A stretch of DNA of 52,245 nt from an uncultured Methylobacillus sp. (GTDB taxonomy: Bacteria > Pseudomonadota > Gammaproteobacteria > Burkholderiales > Methylophilaceae). The stretch spans positions 1-52,245 of the forward strand of contig CAMLDQ010000004.1 of assembly GCA_946478965.1 (NCBI GenBank), given 5' to 3'. The position numbers were made by a program, and so were the translations under genes. The notes under the pieces are model-generated. The model worked only from the letters and a program-made list of their open reading frames with translations, was not told the DNA's origin and ran no database searches. Shown in pieces: positions 168 to 52,245 of the stretch (positions are counted from its first letter, which is position 1; every line of letters starts with the position of its first letter).

Positions 168-1454
168 ATGCAGTATCGTAGCCTGATTCTATTTTCTCTG
201 TTATTGGTGGCATGTGCGGCGCAGCCGCCCGCCCCGCCAGCGCCCCAGCGTGCTGTGCCACCTCCGGCGCCCGCGCCGGTCCAGGCGAACTGCAGCTGCG
301 AGCCGCAGGAAACCTTGCCGCCGCTCCAAATTCCGGACGTGGAGCGCTATATCCCGCCGGAAGTCCCCGGCAAGCCGGTCGAGGCGCCCAAAGGGCCTGA
401 GTACGGTTTGTTGCGGCCAGTCGAGTGGAAGGCGCTGACTGAGTTCGATCAGGATGACTTAACGGCGGCGTGGGATGGGCTGGTGCGGAGTTGCAATGCG
501 CTCGGTAAACGCGATGTCTGGCGTGTTGCTTGTGCGGCCGTCTCGGGCTTGCAGCATCCGGATAATCAAAGTATCCGGACCTTGTTGCAAGAGCGGTTCA
601 GTCCTTATCAGGTAGTCAATGCGGATGGCAGCGACACGGGCTTGATCACCGGCTACTACCAGCCGTTGCTGAACGGCAGTCTGGTGCCTACGGAACGTTA
701 TCGTTATCCCTTGTATTCGCGCCCGGACAACTTGATTACGGTGGATCTTGCGAGCGAGTATCCAGAACTTGCCGGCCGCCGGGTGCGTGGACGTCTGGAG
801 GGTCGCCGCCTGCTGCCTTATTACAGCCGTGGCGAAATCGATGTGACCCAGTCGCCATTGGCGGGCAGGGAACTGCTCTGGGTCGATGATATCGTCGATC
901 TGTTCTTTCTACAGATTCAGGGTTCGGGCATCATCCAGCTTGAAAACGGCGACCGTATTGCTGTCGGGTACGCCGACCAGAATGGTCAGCCATACCAGTC
1001 GATAGGCCGGTTGCTGATAGAACGTGGAGAGCTGACTCTGGACAAGGCTTCCATGCAGGGCATCAAGGAGTGGGGTCGGCAAAATCCGGATAAGTTGCGG
1101 GATGTGTTGAACAGCAATCCCAGTTACGTCTTTTTCCGAAAACTGCCTACCGGCTTGAGTGGGCCGCTTGGCGCGCTTGGCGTGCCGATTGCCGCAGAGC
1201 GTAGCCTGGCGGTCGATCCCCGTTACATTCCGCTCGGAGCGCCGGTGTTCCTCAGTACCACGTATCCCAATAGCCGTCAGCCTTTGCGCCAGCTGATGCT
1301 CGCGCAGGATACCGGTGGGGCGATCAAGGGCGCCGTACGGGCAGATTTTTATTGGGGCACCGGTTTCGATGCGGGCCGTCAGGCTGGCGCAATGAAGCAG
1401 GCTGGGCGCATGTGGGTGTTGTTGCCGCAGGAGTGGTCCACGGATAAACAGTAG
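168..1454 (+). CDS. mltA: Membrane-bound lytic murein transglycosylase A
   Basis: A 428-residue lipoprotein: a hydrophobic leader ends in the lipobox LLVAC, followed by a Pro/Ala-rich linker that would span the periplasm. The MltA catalytic region covers roughly residues 130-300 and the C-terminal 3D domain residues 320-420. It includes LAVDPRYIPLG and AQDTGGAIKGAVRADFYWG, whose aspartates match the family's catalytic region. MltA cleaves the MurNAc-GlcNAc bond of peptidoglycan, releasing 1,6-anhydromuropeptides, from the inner face of the outer membrane. The length is normal for the family. It starts 6 nt after apaG and is probably in the same transcript. Confidence 0.95.
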   Translation: MQYRSLILFSLLLVACAAQPPAPPAPQRAVPPPAPAPVQANCSCEPQETLPPLQIPDVERYIPPEVPGKPVEAPKGPEYGLLRPVEWKALTEFDQDDLTAAWDGLVRSCNALGKRDVWRVACAAVSGLQHPDNQSIRTLLQERFSPYQVVNADGSDTGLITGYYQPLLNGSLVPTERYRYPLYSRPDNLITVDLASEYPELAGRRVRGRLEGRRLLPYYSRGEIDVTQSPLAGRELLWVDDIVDLFFLQIQGSGIIQLENGDRIAVGYADQNGQPYQSIGRLLIERGELTLDKASMQGIKEWGRQNPDKLRDVLNSNPSYVFFRKLPTGLSGPLGALGVPIAAERSLAVDPRYIPLGAPVFLSTTYPNSRQPLRQLMLAQDTGGAIKGAVRADFYWGTGFDAGRQAGAMKQAGRMWVLLPQEWSTDKQ

Positions 1455-1504
1455 TTTCCATTCTATAATGATGGTATTGCTGGAATCGGCCCCTTCCTAT
1501 CGCC

Positions 1505-3493
1505 ATGGTCACTCCAAACTTTTCATCCAGGCAGCATCGTCGTGTTATGGGCGCGATCCTGGCATTGGTCTGCTGCACTGCCCGGGCGGAGGCGCCGGAT
1601 GCGCTGACGGTCAGGCAATTGACCGAAATTCCATTTGAGCAGCTGCTTACGCTGGAGGTCTCCAGTGCTTCGAAATATCCCCAGAAAATAGGCGAGGCGC
1701 CCTCCGCTGCGGTCGTTGTTTCCGCCGAGGATATCCGTTCCTTCGGCTATCGCACCTTGGCCGACATCTTGCGCAGCATGCCAGGGCTCTATGTCAGCGA
1801 TGACCATAGCTGGAGCTATATCGGGGTGCGCGGGTTTTCCCGGCCAGGCGATTACAACACACGCGTGCTGCTACTGGTCGACGGTTACCGGGTCAACGAC
1901 AACATTTACAACCAAGCTTATATCGGCCGGGAATTTCTGGTGGATGTGGACCTGATCGACCGTGTAGAGTTCATTCCCGGACCTGGCGCTTCGGCCTATG
2001 GCGACAATGCGTTTTTCGGTGTTATCAATGTCATCACAAAGCAGGCCTCTGCAATTGGAGGCAACGTTGCAACGCTGGAAGCCGGCAGTCATGACAGCTA
2101 CAAGGTAGGCTACCAACATGGCGAACGTTTCGAGAACGGCGCCGAACTGGTGGTGTCCGCTACCGGATATAGCAGTCAGGGGCGAGACTGGTTTTTCCCG
2201 GAATACGGTGGGGTCGCACACGACCTGGATGGTGAACGGTACGGCAAATTCTTTGCGAAACTGCATTATCAGGAATGGACGTTCGAGAGTGGCTATATGC
2301 GACGTCCCAAGGCCAATCCGGCTGCGCCTTTTGGCAGCGTTTTCGACGACAGCCGCTATGAAACCGTGGATACGCACGCATTTGCCAGTGCCAATTATTA
2401 TGCCCCTTTCTCGGAGACGCTGGATGTGTCGGGCAACCTGTACTATGGGATGTACGACTACGACGGGACTTATCCTTATGCGACGACCCTGAACATTGAT
2501 CGTTCCCGTGGTCGACGGGCCGGCGCAGAGCTGCGGCTCATCAGCACGGCTTTTGCCGGACACAAATTGATGGGCGGCATCGAATACCAGAAGGATCTGC
2601 GTCAGCTCCAGCAGAATTATGATCTGACGCCCAGGACGACCTACATCGATACCAACGCATCGCCCTACAAATATGGGCTGTTCATACAGGACGAATATGC
2701 GTTGCGTAGTGATCTGCTGCTTAACGCCGGGGTGCGCTATGACCATTATGAATGGTTCGGCGACACCGTTAATCCGCGGTTGGCGCTGATCTATCACACC
2801 GCGCCGGGCGACGACATCAAGCTGATTTACGGTACGGCTTACCGGGCGCCCAATGTCTATGAGATGTTCTATGCCGATGGCGGCGTGACCTACAAGGCCA
2901 ACCCCGACCTGAAACCCGAGAAAATCCGCACTTACGAGCTGGTCTTCGACCGTAATCTTGGTGCCGCATGGCACGGTACCGCATCGCTCTACCATTATCA
3001 GGTGGACCGCTTGATCACCCAGATTACGGATCCTTTGGATGGCAGCCTAGTGTTCGTCAACGAAGCAGGAGTGCGGACCAACGGTGTCGAATTGAGCGTG
3101 GAGAAATCCTGGCAGGGAGGCACGCGGCTCAAGGCGAATGTCAGCTACCAAGATGCCAAGGACCGCATGTCCGGCAGCCGGCTGGTCAATTCTCCGCGCG
3201 TGCTGGGCAAAATGGCGTTGGCCGTACCGGTGGCGACTGTCTGGCAGGCGGGCATGGAGTTGCAGTATACCGGCGCGCGTGCGACGGCGGCTGGGGCGGA
3301 GGTAAGCGGATATACGCTGGCCAATCTGACGCTGAGCCGCAGGGATATTTTGCCAGGACTCGATCTATCGGCGAGCGCCTACAACCTGTTGAACAGGGAA
3401 TATCAGGATCCGGCGGATCCGGGTAGCTTTACGCAGGATGTGCTACGGCAGGATGGTCGCGTACTACGCCTCAAGCTGGATTACAGGTTCTGA
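1505..3493 (+). CDS. TonB-dependent outer-membrane receptor
   Basis: 662 residues with a signal peptide ending near residue 28 (ARA|EAP). A plug domain (about residues 50-165) carries the typical APSAAVVVSAEDI, LRSMPGLYVS and IGVRGFSRPGDY motifs. A long beta-barrel follows, ending in an aromatic residue (DYRF). Such receptors import scarce ligands using TonB energy, but the ligand cannot be told from sequence. A TATAAT hexamer at 1464-1469 may be its -10 element, with no good -35. No riboswitch fits in the 50-bp leader. It is followed 2 nt later by a YfiR-like gene and a GGDEF-EAL gene, so the receptor may feed a c-di-GMP signalling unit (inference). A start at the internal ATG at 1547 is possible but would weaken the signal peptide's basic n-region. 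Confidence 0.9.
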   Translation: MVTPNFSSRQHRRVMGAILALVCCTARAEAPDALTVRQLTEIPFEQLLTLEVSSASKYPQKIGEAPSAAVVVSAEDIRSFGYRTLADILRSMPGLYVSDDHSWSYIGVRGFSRPGDYNTRVLLLVDGYRVNDNIYNQAYIGREFLVDVDLIDRVEFIPGPGASAYGDNAFFGVINVITKQASAIGGNVATLEAGSHDSYKVGYQHGERFENGAELVVSATGYSSQGRDWFFPEYGGVAHDLDGERYGKFFAKLHYQEWTFESGYMRRPKANPAAPFGSVFDDSRYETVDTHAFASANYYAPFSETLDVSGNLYYGMYDYDGTYPYATTLNIDRSRGRRAGAELRLISTAFAGHKLMGGIEYQKDLRQLQQNYDLTPRTTYIDTNASPYKYGLFIQDEYALRSDLLLNAGVRYDHYEWFGDTVNPRLALIYHTAPGDDIKLIYGTAYRAPNVYEMFYADGGVTYKANPDLKPEKIRTYELVFDRNLGAAWHGTASLYHYQVDRLITQITDPLDGSLVFVNEAGVRTNGVELSVEKSWQGGTRLKANVSYQDAKDRMSGSRLVNSPRVLGKMALAVPVATVWQAGMELQYTGARATAAGAEVSGYTLANLTLSRRDILPGLDLSASAYNLLNREYQDPADPGSFTQDVLRQDGRVLRLKLDYRF

Positions 3494-5991: not shown

Positions 5992-6063
5992 TTAGCGATT
6001 GCAGACGTACATCGTCACTTCGAAACCAAAACGCATTTCAGTTGCTTCAGGTTTGGTCCACAT
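5992..6063 (-). CDS. pqqA: Orphan PqqA precursor peptide
   Basis: A 23-residue PqqA, far from the other pqq genes. It contains the crosslinked Glu and Tyr in E-V-T-M-Y (residues 16 and 20) that become the PQQ skeleton. It differs from the pqqA at 50952 only at residue 6 (Glu here, Gln there). The ATG at 6063 is chosen because AGGAG lies 7 nt upstream; an ATG two codons earlier (6069) is too close to that site. PqqA is modified by PqqE/PqqD and trimmed by PqqF/G. With no other pqq gene nearby, the product must be processed by enzymes encoded elsewhere. The divergent neighbour is a small secreted protein. Confidence 0.93.
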   Translation of the reverse strand: MWTKPEATEMRFGFEVTMYVCNR

Positions 6064-6291
6064 GGTCATGCTCCTTTCTGCAGTTGAATGATGTAACCCT
6101 ATGGTGAGAGCGCTCATGGAGGAAGCGATCTATATGATTGGAGTTTGTTACCTCCTGCAAATTCACCTCGACCCCTGCTAAAACTCATGAAATGCAGGTC
6201 ATGATTTTCATGAATCGGACATGCCTCCCGCTCTTGTACAAGGGGCCATGGGCGGGTACATTGCGCGTTAACATCTTTGGGATCCTCGTAC

Positions 6292-8925: not shown

Positions 8926-9100
8926 GATTACCGGGCGATGTCGGGATGTGGCAGGATCAAAAGCGTTAGTGCGCCTAATCTATGTCGGCAGAGTCACACT
9001 AGGTCAATGACGGCTCATCGGTCAGGCATGCCAGACCGACTGCCTTATTCGCAGCACTAACGGTTTCGTATTGTACACACTCCGGGTGCCGTGTAGGCGG

Positions 9101-13053: not shown

Positions 13054-13130
13054 TGGCGGAGTGGACGGGACTCGAACCCGCGACCCCCGGCGTGACAGGC
13101 CGGTATTCTAACCAACTGAACTACCACTCC
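13054..13130 (-). tRNA. tRNA-Asp (anticodon GTC)
   Basis: A 77-nt cloverleaf on the minus strand. The acceptor GGAGTGG (5' end at 13130) pairs with CCACTCC, followed by discriminator G and an encoded CCA (13054-13056). The D-arm AGTTCAGTTGGTTAGA, an anticodon loop CTGTCAC giving GTC, and the T-arm GGGTTCGAGTCCC are all present. Standard bacterial tRNA-Asp. Confidence 0.97.
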
Positions 13131-48610: not shown

Positions 48611-48823
48611 TGCCGCTCCTTGTCATGGGTTGCTGGATATTTTAAATGGATGTTTATATCCTCATTATAGGGTTGAATGTATGAAAACTCCAGAAGGTAG
48701 CCTCTGCGAGCAGGCGGTCAACGGTCATGGCCGAGATGATGGAGTGTTGATACAAAAAAATTAACCCATTAAATTTTAGTGGGAATAAGATGACATCTCG
48801 ATCTCGTGAAGAAGGAGTTCGTG

Positions 48824-50182
48824 ATGGGCGCCAGTAAACAGATTACCCATTGGCTTTGCCGATTTGCATTGCTGCTCATGGGTGTGGTTGCTGCTACAGA
48901 AGCGAGTGCCGTTCCCAGTTTTGCCCGCCAGACAGGCATGGATTGCGCAGCCTGCCATATCAGTTTCCCGGAGCTGACGCCTTTCGGCAGGGAATTCAAA
49001 CTGAACGGCTATACCTTGGGGGAGCGTCAGTTGGTGCCGTTGGCGGCCATGATGCAATTCTCCATGACACACCTGAAAACCAATCGGGATAACAGCGGGG
49101 CGGAAATCATGCCGCGCGAGAATGACCCGCAGTTCGATATCCTGAGTCTGTTCGCCGCCGGAAAATTGAGCGACCACGCCGGCATGTTCGTGCAGTGGAC
49201 GTACAGCAATAATTCCGAAACGCGTCCGGATGGCTCCATTCGGCATCATAGCTCCATCGACAACACGGACCTCCGTATCATCGGCAGCCATGATCTTTTC
49301 GGAAAAAACCTGGTCTTCGGTTTCAACCTGAACAACAACCCGACTGAGCAGGATGTCTGGAACTCCACGCCAGCGTGGGGCTATCCGTTCAACGGCCCCA
49401 ATCTGGCCAACGTGCCCGGCCCGGCCTTTGCCACTATCATCGATGGCGGTCTCGGCCAGCAGGTGGCTGGACTCGGCGGCTATCTCTGGTACGACCGGCA
49501 CCTGTATGCCGAGCTTTCGTTCTACGGCACGGCAGACAAGGCGTTTCGCCTGCTGAGCGAGGGGGCATGGGTCAAGTCGGAAGGGCCCTACCTGGATGGG
49601 CGGGATAATCCGTATTGGCGCCTCGCCTGGAATCAGGAATGGGGCGCGCATTCACTGATGGTGGGCACCTATGGGATGCAGGTGGATATTTATCCCGATC
49701 CCAATAACCGTAGCGGTCCTTCAGACCGATACACCGACACCGCCCTGGATGCGCAATACCAGTATCTGTCGGACCCGCATATCGTCACGGCACAGGCGAC
49801 CTATATCCATGAAAAGCAGGACTACCGTGCCAGTTTCGATCCGCTGTGCACGGATGGGCCATGCAATTCGCATGACCACCTGAACACCTTCAAAGCCCGG
49901 GTCAGCTATCTGTATGACCGCAAGTATGGCGCCTCGCTGGCATTCTTCAACACCACCGGCAGCAACGATTCCGTTGCATTCTCCACCGGCGATAACATTG
50001 TGACCAGGCCGGACAATCGCGGGTATATCGCCCAGTTTGACTACAACCCATGGACTTTCGCGCATGTCTCGTTGCAGTACACGCGCTATACCAAATGGGA
50101 TGGGTCGAGTCGAACCGATCTGCTCGGTCTGAAGCCAAGTGACAGGAATACCTTATTCCTGAATACCTGGTTTGCTTTCTAG
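48824..50182 (+). CDS. Outer-membrane cytochrome c-porin fusion (Cyc2-like)
   Basis: 452 residues from ATG 48824, behind AAGGAG. The signal peptide ends near EASA|VP. A single heme site CAACH (41-45) sits in the segment FARQTGMDCAACHISFPELT and is followed by PFGREFKLNGY, the N-terminal arrangement of Cyc2. The remaining 380 residues alternate polar and hydrophobic strands, with aromatic girdles and a final Phe, as in an outer-membrane barrel. Cyc2 of iron oxidisers takes electrons at the cell surface. Related proteins in other proteobacteria have no known role, so Fe(II) oxidation is not claimed here. The cytochrome c4 gene follows 15 bp later. Confidence 0.8.
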   Translation: MGASKQITHWLCRFALLLMGVVAATEASAVPSFARQTGMDCAACHISFPELTPFGREFKLNGYTLGERQLVPLAAMMQFSMTHLKTNRDNSGAEIMPRENDPQFDILSLFAAGKLSDHAGMFVQWTYSNNSETRPDGSIRHHSSIDNTDLRIIGSHDLFGKNLVFGFNLNNNPTEQDVWNSTPAWGYPFNGPNLANVPGPAFATIIDGGLGQQVAGLGGYLWYDRHLYAELSFYGTADKAFRLLSEGAWVKSEGPYLDGRDNPYWRLAWNQEWGAHSLMVGTYGMQVDIYPDPNNRSGPSDRYTDTALDAQYQYLSDPHIVTAQATYIHEKQDYRASFDPLCTDGPCNSHDHLNTFKARVSYLYDRKYGASLAFFNTTGSNDSVAFSTGDNIVTRPDNRGYIAQFDYNPWTFAHVSLQYTRYTKWDGSSRTDLLGLKPSDRNTLFLNTWFAF

Positions 50183-50197
50183 GTGAAGGGGGAAGTC

Positions 50198-50803
50198 ATG
50201 CACGCACACATTCGAATTTGGGTGGGGGTGGTGGGCTTGCTCGTCACCTCCTGGGCCATGGGGGGCAATGAAGCCGCCAGGCTGGATAGCCAGCTCTGCT
50301 CGGTGTGTCACGGCCCTGGCGGTACCACGAGTTCCGAGCTTTTTCCGCAACTCGCCGGGCAACCGGCAGCTTATTTGGTCAACCAGATGCGGGCATTCCG
50401 GGATAAGTCGCGCTCCGACCAGAATGCGAAACGATTCATGTGGGGCATCTCGGCGCAGCTCTCGGATGATGACATACGAAGCCTGGCCGATTACTACCAG
50501 GCGCAGCCGCCTGTACATGGCGGGAAAATTACGGACCAGGCCAAATACGATCTGGGTAAGACTCTTTTCACGACCGGCAATACCGACAAAGGTGTTCCGG
50601 CCTGCATGTCCTGCCACGGGGAAAAGGGAGAAGGCAGCGACACCGTTCCTCGACTGGGAGGGCAGCACGAGGCTTACCTCAAGAGGCAGTTGAAGGTTTT
50701 CTATGGCGATGAGCGGCCTGCAGCCATCGCCATGCACCAGATCGTGAAAGGGCTTTCAGACACCGACATAGATGCTGTGGCGCAATATTTACAAGCCCAG
50801 TGA
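50198..50803 (+). CDS. Periplasmic diheme cytochrome c4
   Basis: 201 residues from ATG 50198 (AAGGGGGA upstream). A signal peptide is followed by two similar heme domains: CSVCH at 34-38 and CMSCH at 136-140. Candidate distal ligands are Met81 (RFMWG) and a Met in AMHQIVKGL. Cytochrome c4 carries electrons between periplasmic partners and terminal oxidases. Tight coupling to the cytochrome-porin gene suggests the two form one electron path. Confidence 0.92.
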   Translation: MHAHIRIWVGVVGLLVTSWAMGGNEAARLDSQLCSVCHGPGGTTSSELFPQLAGQPAAYLVNQMRAFRDKSRSDQNAKRFMWGISAQLSDDDIRSLADYYQAQPPVHGGKITDQAKYDLGKTLFTTGNTDKGVPACMSCHGEKGEGSDTVPRLGGQHEAYLKRQLKVFYGDERPAAIAMHQIVKGLSDTDIDAVAQYLQAQ

Positions 50804-50951
50804 CTTGGAGGACGCACGCCAATTCAAGAAAATCATGAGGGTTGAATCATGATCCACACGACTCCGGGGCTCGGGCATCTGCGTATGATGGGCTCCAATG
50901 TTCAAGCAGATGGTTGCTCGGACCTTATCAACCGGACAAAAGGAGATTGTC

Positions 50952-51023
50952 ATGTGGACCAAGCCTCAAGCTACCGAAATGCGTTTTGGTTTTGAAGTGA
51001 CCATGTACGTCTGCAACCGCTAA
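50952..51023 (+). CDS. pqqA: PqqA precursor peptide (main pqq cluster)
   Basis: 23 residues with GGAG upstream. Glu16 and Tyr20 (EVTMY) are the residues joined by PqqE to start PQQ synthesis. A strong hairpin separates it from pqqB. One residue differs from the orphan pqqA at 5992-6063. Confidence 0.97.
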   Translation: MWTKPQATEMRFGFEVTMYVCNR

Positions 51024-51035
51024 GTTGCACGACTG

Positions 51036-51060
51036 ATGAAGGCCGCATTGCGGCCTTCAT
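51036..51060 (+). terminator. Hairpin between pqqA and pqqB (attenuator)
   Basis: ATGAAGGCCGC (51036-51046) pairs perfectly with GCGGCCTTCAT (51050-51060) around ATT. The downstream TATCTCTATA is only partly T-rich, so read-through is likely. This would give excess pqqA mRNA over pqqB, as described for other pqq operons. Confidence 0.75.
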
Positions 51061-51102
51061 TATCTCTATAAACAGGATATAAGAATCCCATTAGCCTATA
51101 TC

Positions 51103-52020
51103 ATGCATATCCACGTACTCGGTTCCGGTGCCGGCGGAGGTTTTCCGCAATGGAATTGCAATTGCCATAATTGCGATGGCCTGCGCAAAGGCACCATCAA
51201 GGCGCGCCCAAGGACGCAGTCATCCATTTGCGTCAGCGGCGATGGTGTCAATTGGGTGCTGTTCAATGCCTCGCCTGATGTGCTCAAGCAGTTCCAGGAT
51301 TTCCCGCCGTTGCAGCCGGCGCGTGCAATCCGCGATACCGGCCTGGTAGGCATCATCCTGATCGATGCTCAGATCGACCATACCACCGGCCTGCTGATGT
51401 TGCGCGAGGGTACGCAGAAGCGCGAAATCTATTGCACGGAGATGGTGAAGCGCGACCTCACCGGCGGTAATCCGCTGATGAATATCCTGGGCTATTACTG
51501 TGGTGTGAACTGGCATGGGGTGCCGATCGACGGCAAAACCAGCTTCGAGATTCCTGGCGCGGCCAACCTGCGCTTTACCTGCGTGCCGCTCAAGAGCAAG
51601 GCGCCGCCGTATTCGCCGCACCGCTATGACAGCCACGAAGGCGACACCATAGGCGTGCTGGTCGAAGACACCAGCAATGGCAAAAAGCTTTTTTACGCAC
51701 CGGGCCTGGGCGAAATCGAGCCGCATGTGCCGGCGCTGTTCGAGCAGGCCGATTGCATCATGGTGGACGGCACCTTCTGGACCGATGACGAGATGATCGA
51801 TCTTGGGCTGATGGACCAGACCTCCCGCGCGATCGGGCACATTCCGCAGTCCGGCCCCGGCGGCATGATGGAAGTCCTGTCCGCGTATCCCAACGCGCGC
51901 CGCGTATTGATCCACATCAACAACACCAACCCCATCCTGAACGAGGAATCCCCGCAGCGCCGCACCCTCGAGGCGACCGGCATCGAGGTTTCCTACGATG
52001 GCATGGACATTATTATTTAA
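51103..52020 (+). CDS. pqqB: PQQ biosynthesis protein PqqB
   Basis: 305 residues, the normal length. The N-terminus [23 protein letters not shown] and [10 protein letters not shown] are characteristic. The fold is metallo-beta-lactamase-like, and [15 protein letters not shown] replaces the usual HxHxDH. PqqB is an iron hydroxylase that adds hydroxyls to the Glu-Tyr dipeptide. 11 bp upstream of pqqC. Confidence 0.97.
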
Positions 52021-52031
52021 TGGAGAGAGCA

Positions 52032-52245
52032 ATGAGCGATAACACCCCTTGGAGCCGCGAAGAGTTTGAAGCCAGGCTGCGTGAAAAAGGCAAGGGCTAC
52101 CATATCAACCACCCCTTCCACGTGATGATGTACGAAGGCAAGCTCAGCAAGGAGCAGGTGCAGTGCTGGGTCGCCAACCGCTATTACTACCAGATCGCGA
52201 TTCCCATCAAGGATGCGGCGATTCTTTCCAACTGCCCGGACCGCG
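52032..52245 (+). CDS. pqqC: PQQ synthase PqqC, N-terminal part (cut by window edge)
   Basis: 71 codons from ATG 52032, with GGAGAGAG upstream. The visible part ([17 protein letters not shown], then [13 protein letters not shown] and [14 protein letters not shown]) is the start of PqqC, an oxygen-dependent, cofactor-free oxidase that performs the last ring closure and eight-electron oxidation to PQQ. The rest lies outside the window. Confidence 0.96.

Follow-up and report, generated by a model that had tools for sequence, protein, structure and literature searches.

A putative Cyc2-like cytochrome-porin gene and a cytochrome c4 gene lie directly upstream of pqqABC in this uncultured Methylobacillus sp., which raises the question of whether the two cytochromes serve PQQ-dependent enzymes or merely stand beside the pqq genes. 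The initial annotation had offered the former as one possibility, in the shape of an extracellular electron path working in either direction for PQQ-dependent dehydrogenases. We examined the locus within the window, by which we mean the whole stretch of 52,245 nucleotides that was analyzed, and its features are collected in Table 1.

Table 1. Features of the window, in window positions
Feature	Coordinates	Strand	Remarks
Second, solitary pqqA	5992-6063	minus	TIGR02107; own palindrome at 6198-6214 (-151)
Methylophilales-1 RNA (RF03011)	8964-9062	minus	
tRNA	13057-13130	minus	
Half FNR-type site	48747-48760	+	TTGATACAAAAAAA, 2 mismatches to TTGAT-N4-ATCAA; 77 bp before cyc2 ATG
Cyc2-family cytochrome-porin fusion gene	48824-50182	+	452 aa, one CAACH, predicted 16-strand barrel
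Diheme cytochrome c4 gene	50198-50803	+	201 aa, two CxxCH; closest solved relative 1h1o
Remnant of relatives' pre-pqqA palindrome	50823-50839	+	TTCAAGAAAATCATGAG, 2 mismatches to CTCATGANNNTCATGAG; 129 bp before pqqA
pqqA, PQQ precursor peptide	50952-51023	+	23 aa; PF08042 and TIGR02107 above cut-offs
pqqB	51103-52020	+	TIGR02108 above cut-off
pqqC, cut by window end	52032-52245	+	TIGR02111 positions 2-66 of 239; start codon chosen in frame

The cyc2 open reading frame starts with ATG, and an in-frame GTG at 48806 would lengthen the protein by 6 residues. Near its N-terminus the protein carries AVPSFARQTGMDCAACH, with a CxxCH count of one and no second heme site, in the order AVPSFARQTG-MD-CAACH-ISF-PEL. 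An AlphaFold model built with 105 sequences (pLDDT 90.4, pTM 0.86) contains 16 long strands, and its best 50 Foldseek rows are OmpC/OmpF-type porins at 9-14% identity and an rmsd of ~7-9 Å, with modest TM-scores of 0.40-0.49 by query length and 0.50-0.63 by target length; a viral fold search returned mostly porin- and barrel-like matches. No PDB sequence matched a profile of the barrel, and a Pfam/NCBIfam scan of the whole protein gave no meaningful family match. That this is more than a chance open reading frame follows from the 5839 of 8000 candidates scored that match it at E ≤ 1e-3. The protein encoded 15 bp further on has a Pfam Cytochrom_C match above the cut-off and the combination of two CXXCH motifs, a mass of ~20 kDa and similarity to solved c4 proteins that defines cytochrome c4, and pqqA follows it after 148 bp. 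The description first given of these genes from the letters alone, an N-terminal single-heme site on an outer-membrane barrel succeeded at these distances by a diheme c4 and by pqqA, is borne out by the coordinates, the heme motifs, the 16-strand prediction with its porin matches, and the Cytochrom_C, PF08042 and TIGR02107 assignments. The 71 residues of PqqC that fall in the window score 106.7 bits against TIGR02111; a truncated gene is expected to miss the cut-off for the whole protein, as this one does.

Membership in the Cyc2 family can be judged by the rules of Keffer et al. 2021, which ask for the motif AXPXFAR[Q/K][T/Y], a single CXXCH with PXL shortly after it, a length of 365 residues or more, and a porin barrel (PMC8406198). 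The window protein has AVPSFARQT, a single CXXCH followed by PEL, 452 residues and, by prediction, a fused 16-strand outer-membrane barrel; the motif and the CXXCH are 3 residues apart by count, a spacing that the available text of the paper words as 5. Sequence and model together confirm the protein as a predicted Cyc2 in this sense, with a caveat as to clusters, and iron oxidation has been shown for a few members of the family (PMC8406198). We placed it in a tree of 138 chosen rows (quick search, SH-aLRT support). The selection contains none of L096-L112, L168-L182 or the odd-numbered L183-L211, only a minority of L126-L134, and no Zetaproteobacteria or Chlorobium; it includes relatives of a plasmid-borne Cyc2 homologue of Acidithiobacillus ferrooxidans, but not that plasmid protein itself or the chromosomal Cyc2. 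The window protein falls with 12 Methylophilaceae-type rows in a 13-row set (support 99), nearest to L001 and L002, and this set sits in a 20-row clade (support 99) that includes the Methylococcaceae protein L010. PqqB of the window shows 87-88% identity to its counterparts in Novimethylophilus and the L002 MAG, and together with the Methylophilales-1 RNA (Table 1) this makes a host within Methylophilaceae most likely. The 23 Gallionellaceae rows lie across a long, fully supported branch, and among the 88 of 120 Gallionellaceae genomes with Cyc2 matches the match covers the N-terminal part alone except in G190, G198 and G268. By its tree position the window protein thus lies apart from cluster 1, as represented by Gallionellaceae, and the long branch puts it outside the group with the best-supported neutral-pH iron oxidation; it probably belongs to cluster 2, that of the chromosomal A. 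ferrooxidans Cyc2, to which Methylobacter Cyc2 has also been assigned (PMC12810054). The likeness to Cyc2 noted at the outset therefore stands as family membership and fails as proximity to the Gallionellaceae proteins.

Related genes were also seen on plasmids. A Cyc2-like gene adjoins a transposase gene on a plasmid of A. ferrooxidans YQ-N3 (L165, 5890-7257), its product being 32% identical to the window Cyc2, and two Acidiphilium plasmids have Cyc2 matches at the same ~32% identity. On the Caballeronia megaplasmid pSBC1_3 (L166, 3942-6959), genes for a HiPIP, Cyc2 and a c-type cytochrome stand in a row, the HiPIP gene 0.8 kb before cyc2-c4. Locus L003 holds two divergent side-by-side cyc2 genes (271-1683, minus strand, and 2113-3462), the first of which (L003_1) falls on another branch of the tree.

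The c4 partner recurs beyond the window, and the pairing is not new: the available part of one report already describes cyc2 adjoining a mono- or diheme cytochrome gene in Acetobacteraceae (PMC10715153). Of 80 loci, 70 had an open reading frame and at least 900 bp of downstream DNA, the other 10 lacking the one or the other, and in 42 of the 70 a diheme open reading frame lies directly 3' of cyc2. A c4 match follows cyc2 in 24 of 30 loci from a Burkholderiales search, three of which are repeats (L182 comes from the genome of L009, L183 equals L019 and L195 equals L062). The cultivated relative Novimethylophilus kurashikiensis (L009) carries the pair as well. In a joint recount that classified 103 of 109 loci (of the rest, 2 were dropped and 4 have truncated DNA downstream), cyc2 is c4-coupled in 68; two duplicates remain among these loci, L019/L183 and L062/L195, which are identical in DNA and carry no exact FNR-type site. 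Gene clustering found little else in common among the neighbors of cyc2. A Pfam tally of 118 neighboring proteins (from 80 loci, the closest called gene up to 3 kb upstream or up to 4 kb downstream, <700 aa) gave Cytochrom_C 6 times and Copper-bind 3 times. An apparent cyc2-c4 fusion in L028 proved to be a run of N. A profile of 23 cyc2-coupled c4 proteins matched PDB 1h1o best, at 202 bits with the next entry at 166.5; this entry is labeled cytochrome c-552 in the search output, and we take it to be Cyc1 (c4) of A. ferrooxidans. The coupled set shares with 1h1o a Trp right after the conserved Met (W82, nearly invariant), a position at which the three remaining solved c4 proteins align a Lys or a Thr. 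The initial view of a Cyc2-type cytochrome-porin with a c4 partner is supported by the motif, the model and the recurrence of the gene pair.

The DNA upstream of cyc2 carries a second regularity. Exact copies of TTGAT-N4-ATCAA, the FNR/ANR consensus, occur within 200 bp before cyc2 in 13 of 70 loci, compared with 11 of 607 control genes from the same loci (70 of 80 loci were scored, 7 having been dropped by motif and 3 lacking a called open reading frame). Letter shuffles of the upstream DNA produced such sites at a rate of ≤0.07%. The 28 Burkholderiales-search loci include 8 with the exact site and the 23 Gallionellaceae loci include none, though one of the latter has a site with a single mismatch; this part of the analysis used 79 of the 80 loci. 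Divided by partner, the exact site occurs within 200 bp in 20 of 68 c4-coupled versus 0 of 35 uncoupled loci, or 27 of 68 versus 1 of 35 when one mismatch is allowed. The Fisher's p of 1.2e-4 for this difference is too small, since the loci are related and the uncoupled ones come from more distant taxa, so that c4 coupling and kinship are confounded. We regard the tie between FNR-type sites and c4-coupled cyc2 as a modest new lead. Eight Methylophilaceae-type loci have the exact site at -79 to -84 and a ninth, L004, at -41. The window keeps the left half only, at -77, and L001, L002, L006, L007, L009 and L031 have no FNR-type site at ≤1 mismatch, which indicates that low-oxygen control may have been lost here. 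These patterns suggest that many bacteria use the cyc2-c4 pair as a low-oxygen module, the control of which seems to have changed in the lineage of the window.

We are moderately confident in a reading of the whole locus in which the Cyc2-family pair forms an outer-membrane electron conduit, used at low oxygen in many hosts and more likely to carry electrons inward, while its pqq neighborhood is incidental and came about through rearrangement. Conduit function across the outer membrane and low-oxygen use in many hosts are what we infer from the predicted protein pair and its upstream sites. The barrel heme would take electrons from a small outside donor, such as Fe(II) or reduced humic matter, and would pass them to c4, from which they would reach an oxidase or denitrification; many hosts would use the pair when oxygen is scarce. 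Cytochromes c4 usually have high potentials. With such a partner, a Cyc2 at the 208 mV given for the one-heme Cyc2 of strain PV-1 (PMC8406198) would transfer electrons inward more easily at neutral pH than it would export them to iron oxides, and by this analogy we lean toward inward flow. In Methylobacter sp. S3L5C, which has two Cyc2 proteins, dissolved organic matter raised cyc2 expression, which the authors read as humics acting as donor (PMC12211021).

The most serious of the alternatives, though we consider it unlikely, is that under oxygen limitation the pair carries electrons outward for disposal on Fe(III) or humics, untied to pqq. FNR-type sites fit anoxic expression, He et al. 2019 proposed outward extracellular electron transfer for the Cyc2-bearing methylotrophs Methylotenera and Methylobacter (PMC6344600), and Cyc2 and Cyc1 isoforms are described, in the available text, as the path of ferric iron reduction in acidithiobacilli (PMC10715153). 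The potentials that favor inward transfer would, however, make transfer to iron oxides uphill at neutral pH, and the pair has no multiheme partner gene.

Inward or outward, a role tied to PQQ should leave the neighborhood visible in other genomes. We searched the DNA of 48650-52245 against 187 Methylophilaceae genomes, scoring two candidate places per genome, and the matches listed fall in two blocks, cyc2-c4 (query ~258-2157) or pqq (from ~2287), with none among them spanning the junction. A cyc2 relative is present in only 26 of the 187 genomes (17 with at least 50% identity), so that these 26 are the ones informative on the junction. In 14 of 18 genomes examined pqqB was found, always on a contig other than that of the cyc2 match, and in G009, outside Methylophilaceae, the whole cyc2 contig L010 is without pqqB. 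Across 184 cyc2 loci (152 distinct, 30 of them from the Gallionellaceae search), no pqqA, pqqB or pqqC was found in the flanks, and the 27 loci that match pqqB have zero overlap with them; the DNA past the cyc2 match is 1200 bp or longer in 136 of the distinct loci and 5000 bp or longer in 61. Five XoxF-type queries, one of which (L213) is probably a wrong-strand frame, matched neither the window nor any of 151 cyc2 loci, of which 122 are distinct. PQQ families are absent among the 25 of 163 Pfam families listed for the 118 neighbors, a list in which single occurrences may be hidden. Neither a pqq neighborhood of cyc2 nor FNR-type sites before cyc2 were found reported in the accessible text of the open-license papers retrieved on Cyc2. 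A PQQ link of the cyc2-c4 pair is not supported: the functional connection to PQQ enzymes suggested at first finds no backing in these loci, and the porin-cytochrome/pqqA neighborhood, which the initial annotation had expected to recur if it mattered, exists among the genomes searched in this one only.

How the junction arose is suggested by the DNA between c4 and pqqA. Among nine loci of relatives, eight (the Methylophilaceae loci L168, L169, L172, L173, L176, L177, L180 and L181) carry the palindrome CTCATGANNNTCATGAG with ≤3 mismatches at 127-151 bp before pqqA; L171 has four mismatches, and L170, with no pqqA found before its pqqB, is omitted from the count. The window retains a remnant directly past the c4 stop, from which it seems that the pair landed directly in front of the pqqA control region. 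A rearrangement in the lineage of the window would have placed it there, making the adjacency to pqq incidental. The window lacks a preserved copy of the GCGCTGT-like box that follows the palindrome in several relatives. There is no jump in GC content at the junction.

The same gap bears on whether cyc2, c4 and pqqABC form one transcription unit in which the cytochrome-porin serves a PQQ-dependent methanol dehydrogenase. The genes share a strand, 148 bp separate c4 from pqqA, and a simple consensus scan found no terminator-like or promoter-like site between them, which makes read-through into pqqABC possible; the loss of the GCGCTGT-like box fits as well. We nevertheless consider a single functional unit improbable, as the junction was found in this genome only among those searched, what is left of the pqqA palindrome still stands at the customary distance, no XoxF-type match was seen in the cyc2 loci or in the window, and a second pqqA copy lies elsewhere in it. 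Quite improbable too is a variant in which the pair, its low-oxygen switch lost, has been captured by the pqq locus. Read-through would then tie electron exchange with the outside to the supply of PQQ and, through it, to methanol oxidation, and such a capture, if true, would mark the beginning of an extracellular electron path linked to PQQ in a methylotroph. That assembly joined two unrelated contigs at this point would fit the absence of the junction from every other genome searched and its being known from a single assembly, but this is highly improbable given whole genes on both sides, an intergenic join with the palindrome at the usual distance from pqqA, and the even GC.

With the incidental-neighborhood reading of the conduit, an unsupported PQQ link is removed and a testable regularity takes its place, namely that c4-partnered cyc2 often has an FNR-type site, the uncoupled and Gallionellaceae cyc2 genes examined being without an exact one. 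The role of Cyc2 in bacteria not known to oxidize iron may in this way be approachable through growth at low oxygen.

Set beside known systems, the window Cyc2 has the N-terminal motif and single heme in common with cluster 1 (Gallionellaceae, Zetaproteobacteria, Chlorobium), from which it differs in that Gallionellaceae matches are mostly N-terminal only, in the long intervening branch, and in the absence of an exact FNR-type site from all 23 Gallionellaceae loci. Rhodobacter FoxEYZ includes FoxY, a PQQ-containing periplasmic protein in Fe(II) oxidation (PMC10654088), so a link between PQQ and iron is as such known, but FoxE is listed in the available text as a diheme cytochrome and not as a cytochrome-porin (PMC10654088). 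Cyc2 homologues are reported in the methylotrophs Methylotenera and Methylobacter (PMC6344600, PMC5566968), as here, in reports whose accessible sections do not mention a c4 partner, an FNR-type site or a pqq neighbor. Acetobacteraceae likewise have a cyc2-cytochrome gene pair outside the acidithiobacilli, in another bacterial group and with FNR-type sites and pqq neighbors unmentioned in the available text (PMC10715153). For A. ferrooxidans the protein compared was the plasmid homologue, at 32% identity, and not the chromosomal Cyc2. The Acidithiobacillus rus operon, which is described as a cytochrome-porin gene, then a diheme c4 gene, with cup, cox and rus genes (PMC10654088), differs from the window in having these in place of pqqA past c4, while the order of cytochrome-porin and diheme c4 is the same in both and the c4 of the window is closest to 1h1o.
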